NCBI GenBank assembly: GCA_002711215.1
Contig: PAHA01000052.1
Span: forward strand, 1 to 32,442
Length of the DNA stretch: 32,442 nucleotides
Origin: Flavobacteriaceae bacterium
GTDB taxonomy: Bacteria; Bacteroidota; Bacteroidia; Flavobacteriales; Flavobacteriaceae
Direction of reading: 5' to 3'
The notes under the pieces were generated by a model. That model ran no database searches. It saw only the letters and a list, made by a program, of their open reading frames with translations, and was not told the origin of the DNA. Each line of letters begins with the position of its first letter. Position 1 is the stretch's first letter. Below are positions 5,420-31,391 of the stretch, piece after piece. A program made the position numbers and the translations under genes.

Positions 5420-6073
5420 ATGTCCAATAAAATCCATCAACAACTCAAACAGTTGGCTAAGGAAATTCTTGAGATGGAGGAGCCTTACAACTATAAGAAG
5501 GTTTACGATGCTACTTTTCTACTATTCGAATGCCTAATTCTAATCAAAAATTCGGAAGGCTTTGAAAAAGATTTTTGGGAAGATTTAGAAACAAATTTCG
5601 ATCGAGCTGTTGACTTTATTAAATTTAAACCCGAGTCTGAAACACCACAAGAACACTTTAGTGATCCGGAGGAATTCCACCCAATTATGGGGACCATCAA
5701 AGAAATCGTCAAAGAAATACCCGAGGTAAAGCCCCCGGTAGCCGACTTATTTCAGGGCAACAATACGGAGATGTCATTTGAAAAGAAAAAAGAAGCTCCA
5801 ATTACAAATAAAGAAACACAAAAAAGTTTAAATGATAAGTTTTCTAAGGGACTTCAAATAGACCTCAATGATAGATTAGCATTCATCAAACACCTATTTG
5901 ATAAAAAGCCAAATGACTATCAACGTGCTATCTCGCAGATTGCTAGCCTTCAGACTTGGGAGGCTGCACAAAAATTCATCCTCAACATGATCAAGCCTGA
6001 TTACAACTATTGGGAGGGGAAAGAACAATATGAAAAAAGATTTTTGAAAATTATAGAGAATAATTTTCAGTAG
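5420..6073 (+). CDS. Conserved Bacteroidota protein of unknown function
   Basis: This 217-residue, soluble, charged protein has no signal peptide or membrane segment. Residues 1-65 look helical (KEILEMEEPYNYKKVYDATFLLFECLILIK). A low-complexity acidic/proline linker follows (about 70-130, with EVKPPVADLF). The C-terminal part (about 135-217) is compact: SLNDKFSKGLQIDLNDRLAF, then KHLFDKKPNDYQRAISQI and NMIKPDYNYWEGKE. I remember this C-terminal arrangement from unnamed Bacteroidota proteins but know no function. It lies divergent from tdk and 27 bases ahead of rsmI, so it probably shares a transcript with rsmI and recJ. No catalytic motif is visible; a binding or adaptor role is only a guess. 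Confidence 0.75.
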   Translation: MSNKIHQQLKQLAKEILEMEEPYNYKKVYDATFLLFECLILIKNSEGFEKDFWEDLETNFDRAVDFIKFKPESETPQEHFSDPEEFHPIMGTIKEIVKEIPEVKPPVADLFQGNNTEMSFEKKKEAPITNKETQKSLNDKFSKGLQIDLNDRLAFIKHLFDKKPNDYQRAISQIASLQTWEAAQKFILNMIKPDYNYWEGKEQYEKRFLKIIENNFQ

Positions 6074-27440: not shown

Positions 27441-27791
27441 CTAATTTATAAGGTTGGTGTTTTCGTCAGGAAAAATAAAAGTAGGCTTAAAATTCTTGGC
27501 CTTTTCATACTCAACCTGTGCATACCCGATTATAATCACAATATCTCCTTTTTGAACTTTCCTCGCCGCAGGACCGTTTAGGGTAACTTCCCCGCTTGCC
27601 CTTTTACCCTCGATGATGTAAGTTTCTAAACGTTCACCATTATTTATATTTACTACCTGTACTTTTTCACCTACAATTAAATTTGCGGCGTCAATCAAGT
27701 CTCTATCAATGGTGATGCTACCAATATAACTTAGGTCAGCATCGGTTACCTTGACTCTGTGGATTTTCGATTTTATTACTTCTACAAGCAC
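27441..27791 (-). CDS. panD: Aspartate 1-decarboxylase precursor
   Basis: The 116-residue pyruvoyl enzyme makes beta-alanine from aspartate for pantothenate. It is made as a proenzyme that cleaves itself between G24 and S25 in [11 protein letters not shown], turning the serine into the pyruvoyl group. Other family motifs are seen: [17 protein letters not shown] at the N-terminus, [30 protein letters not shown] and VIIIGYAQV. The length is normal. It follows panC by 17 bases, so both halves of the pantothenate pathway (beta-alanine supply and condensation with pantoate) are co-transcribed. Confidence 0.97.
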
Positions 27792-27808: not shown

Positions 27809-28648
27809 TTAAGACATATCCAAATTATCAATCAACCTAATTTTTCCCAAATAGGCTGCAATAAAGCCTCGGCCCAAATCGACAGGTTCCTTCAAATCAA
27901 CTTCTTTAAGTGTTTTAGGATGAGCAATTGTAAAATAATCCAGATTAAGTTCATCGTATTTTTCAAAGAAATCCATGACCATTTTTTTTAAGGTATTGTA
28001 GGATTCCTTTTTAGCATTGGATTTTGCAAATTTCAGTCCTTTAAATATTTTGGAAGCTAATTTTCGTTGATCCGATGACAAGAAATTATTTCGAGAGCTC
28101 ATTGCAAGTCCATCTCTTTCTCTAATTATTGGACATCCAATTATTTCGGTATTCAATTTCAGTGATTGGGTAATGTGCTCTATGATGCGCAATTGTTGAA
28201 AATCTTTCTCCCCAAAATAGGCATGGTTAGGAGTAAATACTTTAAGGAAATGTACAACCACAGTAGCTACGCCCTGAAAATGACCAGATCTTTTTTTCCC
28301 CTCCATAACTTGGTCTAGGCCTCCGAGGTCAATAGATTTTGATGCCACAAGATTCCCATAAACGTCTTTTACTTTGGGTGTGTAAACAAAAATTTTTCCT
28401 GGTAATTGTTCAATTTTTTTCAAATCAGTCTCAATGTTGATGGGGTAGTTTTCAAGATCGGCTTTGTTATCAAATTGCGTGGGATTGATGAAAATACTTA
28501 CCAAAACCGTCTGATTCTCACTAAGCGCTCTTTCAATAAGAGATAAATGCCCTAAATGAAGCGCACCCATGGTAGGAACCATGCCAATAGGTCGAGTTTC
28601 TTTTGATAAATGTTCAACCAAAGATTGGGAAGTATGAAAAACCTTCAT
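27809..28648 (-). CDS. panC: Pantothenate synthetase
   Basis: The 279-residue enzyme condenses pantoate and beta-alanine using ATP. The nucleotide-binding signature is GMVPTMGALHLGHLSLIERA with the HLGH motif (31-34). Further motifs are VSIFINPTQF, HFQGVATVVVHFLKVFTPNHAYFGEKDFQQL, and the KMSKS-equivalent region RERDGLAMSSRNNFLS. The C-terminal domain (DLNYFTIAHP-like stretch, then RLIDNLDM) is intact. It is the first gene of the panC-panD unit and is divergent from the GT5-like gene with 100 bases between. A -7-like TATCTTTA at 28677-28670 lies ahead of it but lacks a matching upstream box. Confidence 0.96.
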   Translation of the reverse strand: MKVFHTSQSLVEHLSKETRPIGMVPTMGALHLGHLSLIERALSENQTVLVSIFINPTQFDNKADLENYPINIETDLKKIEQLPGKIFVYTPKVKDVYGNLVASKSIDLGGLDQVMEGKKRSGHFQGVATVVVHFLKVFTPNHAYFGEKDFQQLRIIEHITQSLKLNTEIIGCPIIRERDGLAMSSRNNFLSSDQRKLASKIFKGLKFAKSNAKKESYNTLKKMVMDFFEKYDELNLDYFTIAHPKTLKEVDLKEPVDLGRGFIAAYLGKIRLIDNLDMS

Positions 28649-28748
28649 TTAGTAAAAAATTAACAACCGTAAAGATACAGAATTCAGCATATTCCGTTTA
28701 ATTTTCGTAATTTCGCCAAACTTTGTTTCCCTCGATTATATAGAGTTT

Positions 28749-29555
28749 ATGAAAGACAAAAAGGTTCTAAATATTTCGTCTGAAGTGGTTCCATACCTTC
28801 CTCAGACTAACCAAGCTATAAATTCTTTCAAAATCCCAAAAAACATTAATGATCATGGTGGTCAGACACGGATTTTTATGCCCAGATATGGGCTGATTAA
28901 TGAGAGAAGACATCAACTCCACGAAGTGATTCGCCTTTCTGGAATGAATCTTGTAATCAATGATGTTGATATGCCTTTAATTATCAAAGTAGCCTCTATC
29001 CCAAAAGAGAGAATGCAAGTTTATTTTATTGACAATGAAGAATATTTTAAAAGGAGAGCCATATTAAAAGATGAAAGTCAAGCTCTTTTTCCGGACAATG
29101 ATGAAAGAATGATTTTCTTTACTAAAGGGGTAATTGAAACCGTCAAAAAACTAAATTGGTCGCCTGACATAATTCATTTACACGGTTGGTTCACTTGTCT
29201 TTTCCCTCTTTATCTCAACACCTATTACAAAGATGAACCCATCTTTGCCAACAGTAAAATTGTTACCTCTGTATACGCCAAAGACTTTGATGGTGTCTTA
29301 TCTCACCAATTTCATAAGAAAGTAGCCTTTGATGACATCCCTGAAGAATTGATTGAACCGCTAAAAAAAGCAGATTTTGAAAGTTTGGAGCAGTTAAGTT
29401 TAAACTTTTCAGATGGATATGTCATTGCTGACCAAGACACGCCTAACTCGATTGAAAAGTATTTAAAAGAGAATAAAATTCCTGGCCTCATTTTTGAGGA
29501 ATCGCAAAAAAACGACGCTCTAGTCAATTTATACACTAATCATATTTTAAAATAA
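28749..29555 (+). CDS. GT5 starch/glycogen-synthase N-domain protein, half length
   Basis: The 268-residue protein matches only the N-terminal Rossmann half of glycosyltransferase family 5 (GlgA-like). Similar phrases are KVLNISSEVVPYLPQTNQAI, NDHGGQTRIFMPRYGLI, NERMIFFTKGVIETVKKL, PDIIHLHGWFTCLFPLYL, and IVTSVYAKDFDG. The KxGGL motif that binds ADP-glucose after SEVVPY is replaced by PQTNQ, and the whole C-terminal nucleotide-binding half is absent, so glycogen synthase activity is very unlikely. It is not a broken gene: the end is clean and the next gene begins three bases on. I recall such short GT5 proteins next to panC and ahead of a DUF4270 gene in other Bacteroidota. The role is unknown. 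Confidence 0.85.
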   Translation: MKDKKVLNISSEVVPYLPQTNQAINSFKIPKNINDHGGQTRIFMPRYGLINERRHQLHEVIRLSGMNLVINDVDMPLIIKVASIPKERMQVYFIDNEEYFKRRAILKDESQALFPDNDERMIFFTKGVIETVKKLNWSPDIIHLHGWFTCLFPLYLNTYYKDEPIFANSKIVTSVYAKDFDGVLSHQFHKKVAFDDIPEELIEPLKKADFESLEQLSLNFSDGYVIADQDTPNSIEKYLKENKIPGLIFEESQKNDALVNLYTNHILK

Positions 29556-29558
29556 GGT

Positions 29559-31391
29559 ATGTACTCTTCTAATATGATAATTAGTCGTTTAGCGATTCTT
29601 TTGGTGTTTTCACTAAAAGTTTTATCATGTGACAAAGAGTATCATTCTGCTGGATCCGAAGTACTTCTTCCTATAGCTCTCAAGTCAAAATCATATAGCG
29701 CACCTGTTTATTCTTTTCAGAAAAAGGTCAATTATTATCAAACAGATGGCCTTCCGTTCGCGCAACTCGGTAGAATCCAAATTCCTGGTTTTGGGATTTC
29801 TGAGGCAAGCATTACTGCAAGATTAGAAGCTTCTACTAACCCTATCTTTGGTAAATTTTCTCAAATAAGAGAGGATGATGGAGATTTGGATAATCCAAGT
29901 GTAATAAATGAGAGGGAGACCGTAACACAAGTTTATCTTGAAATACCATTTTTCAATAATCAGAATGATAAAGATGGGGATGGTGTTATAGATGCTTTAG
30001 ACCTAGACCCTGAGGATAGGGAAAGTGATACAGATGGCGATGGTATAACTGATTATGAGGAATCTCGATCTAATCTTAATCCATTGAGTGAGGATAGTGA
30101 CGGCGATGGTGTCTTGGATGATCTAGATCAAGATAGTAGCAGCTATGATAATGAAAATAAAACATATGAGATAGATTCCATTTATGGAAATAGGGAGACA
30201 TTTTTTAATTTGAAAGTATATGAGCTTAAATACTATTTGTCGCAATATGACCCCACAACAAACTTTGCTAAAAACTCAATATTTTTTTCCAATACTGATT
30301 ACTTCAAAAGTGGATTTTATGGAGAAACACTTCATGACGAGCGCTATAAACTTAATTTTGAAGAGTTACGGTTTAATTTTGAAGAGGACGATCCCAATAC
30401 TGAGGATGTGGATGAGAGTGAAATTGTAGAAACCCGTTTAACGCCAAGAATAAGAGTACCTCTTGACAAAGAATTTTTTCAAGATAAAATACTCGACCAA
30501 GAAGGCGAAGTAGTTTTCTCCAACAATGATAATTTCTCCAGACACTTTAGAGGCCTCATTATTAGAGCCGATAACTTTGATGATGATTTGTATATGATAT
30601 TAGACATCAATAGCGCGAGAATAACTATTGAATATCAATACGATGAGGTCAACATCAATGGCACCCTTGATGACACATCAGATGATACTACAGAAAAAAT
30701 CTCAAAAACTTTTTTAATTAATTTTGGGCTATACTTCAATACGGTTGAAAAAAAAATATTCAACAGCCAAGTTGATCAGGAAATACTGGCCAGCCAAAGC
30801 AACGTCCCTTCTCAGCACATGTACCTCACTGGTAATGGATTATTTTCTACTTTGAAACTATTTGAGCATAGCAGTAAAGGAAATCAATTACTAGATGAAC
30901 TGAGAGAGAACCAATGGTTGATTAATGAAGCCAATTTGATTTTATACATTGATCAAAATCAATACAATCACATGAACAAATCCCAATTTCCCGACCGTCT
31001 CTATTTGTATAAATACGAAACTGGTTTTCCACTTACTGATTACAGCATTGACAATACAGTAAACAACAATGAAATTAATAGAAGTAAGTTCATATATGGT
31101 GGAATTTTAGAGTTGGACGAGGAAAACAAGCCATATCGTTACAAGTTTAGGATTACCGATCATGTCAATCGACTTTTTAGAAGTGACTCTGCCAATGTTT
31201 ATTTAGGACTGGTCCCCTCCAACGGAATAAGTAATATAGAGCCTAAAAGAGCAGAAACATTTGATCAAGAATTTATCAATTATCCTGCCACCGCAATTCT
31301 TAATCCAAAAGGGGTTATTCTTCATGGAACTGAAAGCGAAAATCATCCTGATGGCGGGCTAAAGCTTGAGATTTTCTATACTGAATTCTAA
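29559..31391 (+). CDS. DUF4270 lipoprotein with calcium-type acidic repeats
   Basis: The 610-residue protein has a lipoprotein signal (LAILLVFSLKVLSC, cysteine 24) followed by acidic/charged DKE, so it is outer-membrane anchored, perhaps surface exposed. The DUF4270 pattern is seen in PVYSFQKKVNYYQTDGLPFA, QLGRIQIPGFG, FRGLIIRAD, YLTGNG and EANLILYID. Between two parts of the domain (136-200) lies an inserted acidic region of thrombospondin type 3-like repeats: DKDGDGVIDALDLDP, DTDGDGITDYEE and DSDGDGVLDDLDQD, which typically bind calcium. DUF4270 has no known function. It begins three bases after the GT5-like gene and is almost certainly co-expressed with it. Several DEDD-type acidic segments follow the insertion. 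Confidence 0.88.
   Translation: MYSSNMIISRLAILLVFSLKVLSCDKEYHSAGSEVLLPIALKSKSYSAPVYSFQKKVNYYQTDGLPFAQLGRIQIPGFGISEASITARLEASTNPIFGKFSQIREDDGDLDNPSVINERETVTQVYLEIPFFNNQNDKDGDGVIDALDLDPEDRESDTDGDGITDYEESRSNLNPLSEDSDGDGVLDDLDQDSSSYDNENKTYEIDSIYGNRETFFNLKVYELKYYLSQYDPTTNFAKNSIFFSNTDYFKSGFYGETLHDERYKLNFEELRFNFEEDDPNTEDVDESEIVETRLTPRIRVPLDKEFFQDKILDQEGEVVFSNNDNFSRHFRGLIIRADNFDDDLYMILDINSARITIEYQYDEVNINGTLDDTSDDTTEKISKTFLINFGLYFNTVEKKIFNSQVDQEILASQSNVPSQHMYLTGNGLFSTLKLFEHSSKGNQLLDELRENQWLINEANLILYIDQNQYNHMNKSQFPDRLYLYKYETGFPLTDYSIDNTVNNNEINRSKFIYGGILELDEENKPYRYKFRITDHVNRLFRSDSANVYLGLVPSNGISNIEPKRAETFDQEFINYPATAILNPKGVILHGTESENHPDGGLKLEIFYTEF

Follow-up and report, generated by a model that had tools for sequence, protein, structure and literature searches.

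The window analysed here is a stretch of 32,442 nucleotides from a Flavobacteriaceae bacterium (assembly GCA_002711215.1, contig PAHA01000052.1, positions 1 to 32,442 of the forward strand). Towards its end two genes lie in tandem. The first codes for a protein holding only the N-terminal half of a GT5 glycogen/starch synthase (hereafter half-GT5) and the second, which starts after a gap of 3 nt, for a lipoprotein of the DUF4270 family. The coordinates are collected in Table 1. The original prediction, made from the sequence alone, had presented this pair as a two-gene unit in which the GT5 half might have become a binding or regulatory protein of the DUF4270 lipoprotein. Its description of a clean 268-residue protein with no KxGGL motif, followed after three bases by a DUF4270 lipoprotein, agrees with the results reported below.

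Table 1. Position of the half-GT5 gene, of bamH and of the adjoining features in the window.
Feature	Position	Strand	Remarks
half-GT5 gene	28749..29555	+	268 amino acids (aa), ATG start; GT5 N-terminal Rossmann domain and C-terminal crossover helix, without donor domain, catalytic residues lost
bamH (DUF4270 lipoprotein)	29559..31391	+	610 aa, ATG start, lipobox Cys24; family of extracellular subunits of the β-barrel assembly machinery (BAM)
Asp-rich TSP3-like (calcium-type) insert within bamH	29964..30152 (approximate limits)	+	mostly in the window's own genus
panC	27809..28648	-	divergent neighbour of the half-GT5 gene
panD	27441..27791	-	adjoins panC
Intergenic stretch (100 bp) between the divergent panC and half-GT5 starts	28649..28748	.	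presumed promoter region

The 268-residue protein matched the Pfam profile PF08323 over residues 5-215 (profile positions 1-199 of 239; 139 bits). No C-terminal glycosyltransferase domain was detected in it by the Pfam scan, the donor-binding second Rossmann domain being absent, and its gene is the sole PF08323 match in its own 2.2-Mb genome (estimated 91.5% complete). An AlphaFold2 model built from 96 homologues (predicted local distance difference test 95.2, predicted template modelling score 0.93) was found to be closest to starch and glycogen synthases (Z 21-27, root-mean-square deviation (rmsd) 2.4-3.0, 228-248 residues aligned), followed in the VIA-align list, next below the GT5 synthases, by glycogen phosphorylases (Z up to 20.8). 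When superposed on E. coli glycogen synthase 2qzs (Z 23.1, rmsd 2.8, 239 residues aligned), residues 4..267 of the model span residues 1..477 of the chain. Sequence alignment with full-length GT5 proteins located the loss of about 220 donor-domain residues between window residues ~225 and 257, the N-domain and the final helix being kept. The structural range and the sequence alignment agree and, therefore, half-GT5 arose by internal excision of the donor domain and not by simple truncation. As far as the predicted fold shows, a GT5 starch synthase of the GlgA type is the ancestor of half-GT5. The short protein shares with GlgA (E. coli 2qzs, A. tumefaciens 1rzu and plant SSIV 6gne) the N-terminal Rossmann domain and the C-terminal crossover helix, and differs from it by the lack of the donor-binding Rossmann domain, by the loss of KxGGL, D137 and H161, and by new invariant blocks. 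No signal peptide was apparent by eye, without the use of a signal-peptide program.

The GT5 positions K15 (the lysine of KxGGL), D137 and H161 are catalytic-type residues, numbered here as in E. coli. Among 18 full-length proteins, K15 is kept in 17, and D137 and H161 are kept in all. In the window's half-GT5 they are replaced by P, G and Y, and PQTNQ stands in place of the KxGGL loop. The same loss was observed in the half proteins at large: D137 has become G in 73 of 86 and H161 has become Y in 69, both D and H being kept in two. The old donor loop (positions 18-26) is now variable in the half proteins (column entropy 2.66 bits, versus 0.69 in the full-length proteins), whereas the blocks 41-67 (0.66 versus 2.22 bits) and 76-102 (0.78 versus 2.21 bits) show the reverse and are, together with block 116-147, almost invariant. 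Eleven residues are invariant in 96/96 half-GT5 sequences, P15, P45 and P139 of these being near-universal in full-length GT5 too; this alignment holds 96 of the 103 half sequences, seven members of the window's genus being set aside. Within that genus, 50 of 136 pairs have a finite dS, and for these the ratio of non-synonymous to synonymous substitution rates (dN/dS) has a median of 0.048 and a maximum of 0.267; the 86 others have no finite non-zero dS, and 5 of the 16 pairs against the window are infinite. For the seven pairs with dS < 1 the median is 0.072. The ratio near 1 named in the original prediction as the mark of a truncated relic is thus not what was found. Taken from the alignments, these patterns indicate that the old catalytic site has decayed while another surface became strongly constrained, and half-GT5 is apparently catalytically dead.

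The second protein (610 residues) matched PF14092 (DUF4270) with 192 bits and, among solved structures, 9n2d_C 'Bam H' (E 1.3e-43). The NCBIfam model BamH_fj gave 391.6 bits in two stretches, below its equivalog cut-off of 420. The lipobox cysteine, Cys24, is invariant in 28/28 aligned rows, as read from the alignment. By homology, the window's DUF4270 protein is identified as a BamH homologue, a member of a subunit family of the Bacteroidota BAM complex. DUF4270 therefore has a function, and the premise that none was assigned to it is out of date. According to passages of two papers of 2025 (PMC12611786, PMC12578637), BamH (Fjoh_0823, Bt4306, PGN_1735) is an extracellular lipoprotein subunit of this complex; it is essential to F. 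johnsoniae, while for B. thetaiotaomicron it is important but dispensable. BamG and BamH are called universally conserved in the phylum in a passage of the first (PMC12611786), and no BamG match in any endosymbiont is reported in one of the second (PMC12578637). Elsewhere, BT1785-86 appear in a list, one as hypothetical and the other as a DUF4270 protein (excerpt of PMC10434189). Compared with BamH of F. johnsoniae, B. thetaiotaomicron and P. gingivalis, the window's protein is homologous and differs by its score under the cut-off and by its TSP3-like Asp-rich insert. At least two Asp-rich TSP3-like repeats (DxDGDG) were counted in 15 of 103 BamH open reading frame (ORF) rows, a rough count on ORFs in part cut by locus ends; three of these rows represent the gene of the window itself, 11 come from other members of its genus and one (L098) belongs to another family.

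The gene order was surveyed in 247 genomes drawn from the class to which the window belongs (presumably Bacteroidia). A PF08323 match was present in 238 of them, and 125 of the 150 matches listed, in 125 genomes, are half-length (ORF up to 345 aa). Among the matches listed with a DUF4270 position, the half-GT5 gene lies directly upstream of the DUF4270 gene on the same strand in 92 of 99 and elsewhere in seven; 26 of the 125 half-length rows, having no listed DUF4270, were left out of this count, and nine DUF4270 rows were added to it from a separate search. Among the matches listed in this draw, 23 full-length GT5s have a listed DUF4270, and none of them lies within 3 kb of it, unlike in the early-branching loci described below. 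Sixty loci were then fetched. The gene directly after half-GT5 is bamH in 53 of them; 47 have a glmS no more than 4.5 kb downstream, and 46 have both genes. A divergent panC was observed in 49; the original prediction had mentioned the same pair beside panC in other Bacteroidota. These loci are a non-random sample, since six (G012, G041, G057, G025, G068 and G053) were taken at a DUF4270 match, which favours bamH (47/54 without them), and five (G146, G343, G232, G405 and G002) were picked as known unlinked, which disfavours it. The bamH of locus L074 was missed by the first BamH profile and matched by the later A2 profile, and the identity of GlmS passed NCBIfam in the two loci tested, one of them of the Blattabacterium genus. 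The usual operon, presumably co-transcribed, is thus halfGT5-bamH-glmS, divergent from panC. The adjacency is not restricted to a few close relatives, and the description as a two-gene unit overlooked glmS, the usual third gene. The window deviates from this order, an acyltransferase gene on the opposite strand lying downstream of its bamH. At L061:1691-4522, a tandem pair of bamH genes was observed between half-GT5 and glmS.

The fate of half-GT5 in reduced genomes separates it from its usual neighbours. A profile of the half-GT5 family matched 229 of 246 genomes of the order and 189 of the 192 good-quality ones. In family f111, whose genomes measure 0.3-0.6 Mb, it was detected in 39 of 40, that is, in 38/38 of genus g241 and in G447; the family profile found none in G648, where none of 14 query genes including dnaK was seen either in the 145,432 of 334,739 bases (43%) searched. 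A plasmid from G508, a genome of g241, matches the Blattabacterium sequence NZ_CP029821.1 with 100% identity; the naming of f111 rests on this one plasmid, and the order and family names are inferred. BamH was found in 0/20 f111 genomes tested, 19 of which have half-GT5, and glmS comes next after half-GT5 in 5/5 loci of g241. Neither Omp85, DUF4270/BamH nor glmS could be found in G219 (CP063811, 489,825 bp), which keeps half-GT5 between eno and gyrB; its gene names (mur, eno, gyrB, nagB and others) were assigned by eye from protein starts. Likewise, neither bamH nor glmS was found in the whole of G447 (344,793 bp), which keeps half-GT5 and has matches for murA, murB, murC, murG, mraY and ddl, the queries being the G219 genes named by eye. 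At 144881-149028 of G447, half-GT5 is convergent to Skp-like and BamA-like genes, both recognised by eye. Because these reduced genomes keep half-GT5 where no BamH, and in G219 and G447 no GlmS, was found, its function must, judging from gene content, be distinct from that of BamH and, in the latter two, from that of GlmS. To the extent that the mur names given by eye are right, peptidoglycan precursor synthesis is a feature common to the half-GT5 keepers examined.

The origin of the half protein was followed in a tree of 87 half and 18 full-length sequences (105 rows), in which the window's genus is represented by the window's sequence, its 16 others being left out. On one side of a branch with support 100/99 stand 86 of the 87 half proteins. 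The remaining one, from G172 (L018), is nested in the full-length group and results from an independent halving; in this genome, of another class, the genes after the halved GT5 (L128:2825-5435) code for a GmhB-like phosphatase, then for a lipoprotein resembling BamH and then for BamG. In the early-branching lineages a full-length GT5 stands before a BamH-like lipoprotein, often with a GmhB-like phosphatase between the two, and the KTGGLAD motif is kept, by eye, in 16 of 18 such loci. These loci (L181-L198) were chosen by GT5 score, and G097 was chosen for its DUF4270 known to be adjacent. A BamH-profile match was detected near GT5 in 11/18 (E up to 0.1, 18-56 bits, the weakest of which may be due to chance) and none in the other seven, including two apparent Chlorobia loci. 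Pfam called none of three early-branching BamH-like proteins DUF4270, and the name BamH was given to such proteins by neither Pfam nor NCBIfam; no DUF4270 match was obtained in L183 and L126, and a DNRLRE domain is present in the BamH-like proteins of L183, L128 and L181. The identity of these proteins as BamH rests on the profiles built here and on the BamG next door in three loci: BamG scored above the NCBIfam cut-off in the 3/3 loci tested, namely L183 (full GT5), L126 (half-GT5) and L128 (independent half). By eye, the BamH-like gene has no bamG-like gene directly after it in L185, L186 and L189. A full-length GT5 heads the bamH-bamG operon in early branches and, therefore, the linkage between GT5 and bamH most likely predates the loss of the domain. 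In L194 and L195 (G153 and G075), apparently Chlorobia (a bchL-like gene, by eye, adjoins in L194), the full-length GT5 has a degraded KxGGL loop (IRVSSLAD and VRTSALAD, respectively), a possible intermediate with no BamH-profile match nearby.

We propose, with a probability of about 0.4, that half-GT5 is a cytoplasmic pseudoenzyme acting on envelope sugar supply and encoded with BAM and GlmS genes. In the window's class, the starch synthase lost its donor-binding Rossmann domain and its catalytic residues, and other residues became almost invariant. The resulting protein would bind a ligand or a partner via a reshaped pocket or the hairpin region and would influence how sugar precursors of the envelope (amino sugars, UDP-N-acetylglucosamine, peptidoglycan) are supplied. 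The operon would coordinate this supply with BAM, half-GT5 being neither a BAM subunit nor a glycogen synthase. In this proposal we infer that the genes are co-transcribed, that half-GT5 is cytoplasmic and binds a ligand, and that it belongs to this pathway and exerts any regulation there. Its sharper form is doubtful: a phylum-wide core pseudoenzyme sensing a sugar-nucleotide or sugar-phosphate and setting amino-sugar and peptidoglycan supply, via GlmS where present, in step with outer-membrane assembly, separably from BamH. Several points weigh against the proposal. No ligand, partner or phenotype is on record for half-GT5; glmS is not beside bamH in the window; an action through GlmS alone is excluded in G219 and G447, which have no detectable glmS; the peptidoglycan link rests on two reduced genomes and, for Blattabacterium, on recall; and an operon order can persist by inertia. 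In B. thetaiotaomicron the orthologue of half-GT5 is presumably BT_4307, by its place next to Bt4306. Two screens with a vitamin B12 photo-probe showed an enrichment of this protein (log2 2.61 and 1.05; data extracted from PMC8941943), which may reflect another kind of ligand or noise. Furthermore, a P. gingivalis 'glycogen synthase', which may or may not be half-GT5, is listed among genes under positive selection in the part of PMC10394638 consulted.

Other readings compete with this supply of envelope sugars. That the gene order is mere inertia and that half-GT5 is another housekeeping protein, binding RNA, a cobamide or another ligand or serving translation, is rather improbable; its near-universal presence, 0.3-0.6-Mb genomes included, its place between eno and gyrB in G219 and the B12-probe enrichment in both screens are compatible with it, whereas the envelope-gene neighbours found in most fetched loci across deep divergence (bamH and glmS, and in early branches GmhB-like, BamH and BamG) argue against it. 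GlmR/YvcK and RapZ are regulators of GlmS, and we take their families to be different from half-GT5. The likeness would at most be one of function, in that a cytoplasmic protein is linked with glmS. That half-GT5 is their Bacteroidota analogue, activating GlmS specifically or acting as its sensor, is unlikely: glmS stands downstream of the halfGT5-bamH pair in most fetched loci and directly after half-GT5 where bamH is absent (the five Blattabacterium-genus loci and G146), but this last adjacency may be the plain deletion of the middle gene, 13 of the 60 loci have no glmS in the stretch searched, and the whole of G447 as well as G219 do without a detectable one.

A still less likely role is that of a dedicated partner or regulator of BamH or of BAM biogenesis, for example by cytoplasmic action on bamH translation or on the load of outer-membrane protein clients. 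The direct adjacency in both counts given above and the full-length GT5 before BamH(-BamG) in early branches are in agreement with it. The gene fjoh_0824, from its numbering next to bamH (Fjoh_0823) and from synteny, should be half-GT5, and the 100 bp upstream of it served to build an inducible promoter for depletion strains (described in the one of the two 2025 papers that appeared in Nature). Against this, half-GT5 is away from bamH in 7/60 loci, and the excerpts of PMC12611786 and PMC12578637 do not mention it where they list proteins that co-purify with BAM. A direct partnership is unlikely because half-GT5 has no apparent signal peptide, BamH being extracellular, and because it is retained where BamH was not detected, as in 19/20 f111 genomes tested and in G219, which also lacks a detectable Omp85. 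Hence, from the original prediction, a repurposed GT5 half coupled to DUF4270 stands, the protein being apparently non-catalytic, strongly constrained and widely coupled at the gene level, and the part that found no support is a role with, or upon, BamH in particular. A persisting role in glycogen metabolism, as a split enzyme with a separate C-half or as a glucan-binding subunit, is very improbable. It would fit the predicted GT5 N-domain fold and a passage of PMC10797578 that takes BT_4307 for a candidate glycogen synthase in arguing that B. thetaiotaomicron might store glycogen, and is opposed by the loss of K15, D137 and H161, by the retention in 0.3-0.6-Mb genomes and by the want of another PF08323 match in the window's own genome, where no search was aimed at a separate glycosyltransferase C-half. 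As a subunit of a full-length GlgA, half-GT5 was rejected for this genome, which has only the one PF08323 match. Finally, a decaying truncated relic would account for the half length and the lost catalytic residues and, only if the same gene is concerned, for the positive-selection listing, but relaxed selection is contradicted by the dN/dS values, the 11 invariant residues and the near-universal presence, very small genomes included, and this reading was rejected as scarcely credible.

The family has been noticed before in one sentence of a review, 'GlgA-GT5 fragment conserved in Bacteroidetes' (Chem Rev 2024, PMC11046441), which apparently designates half-GT5. This sentence names no gene and is silent on the operon, the catalytic loss, the retention in symbionts and a function. 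Neither PMC12611786 nor PMC12578637 uses the terms glycogen or starch synthase in its main text, and the main text of the P. gingivalis essential-gene paper PMC3547785 does not mention glycogen, starch or lipoprotein. Among the papers listed or opened in the openly licensed PMC literature, which leaves subscription journals mostly outside, none was found tying half-GT5 to bamH or glmS. Since half-GT5 stands at the head of the bamH operon in much of the Bacteroidota and is kept in tiny symbiont genomes with no detected partner gene, we regard it as a probable core protein for which the glycogen synthase annotation is wrong, and its presence in nearly every sampled genome of the class, together with this retention, makes it probably important for growth. 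Through this conserved operon, the synthesis of amino sugars is connected to the extracellular BAM machinery described in 2025, and effects on the upstream half-GT5 gene are worth considering in bamH deletions and depletions. If the sensing of sugar precursors proved true, a phylum-wide envelope regulator would hitherto have been annotated as a glycogen synthase.

Rfam (gathering thresholds) and tRNA scans of the window gave no match. A 217-aa ORF without Pfam match at E 0.001 lies at positions 5420-6073, between a thymidine kinase gene and a gene of the tetrapyrrole-methylase family.

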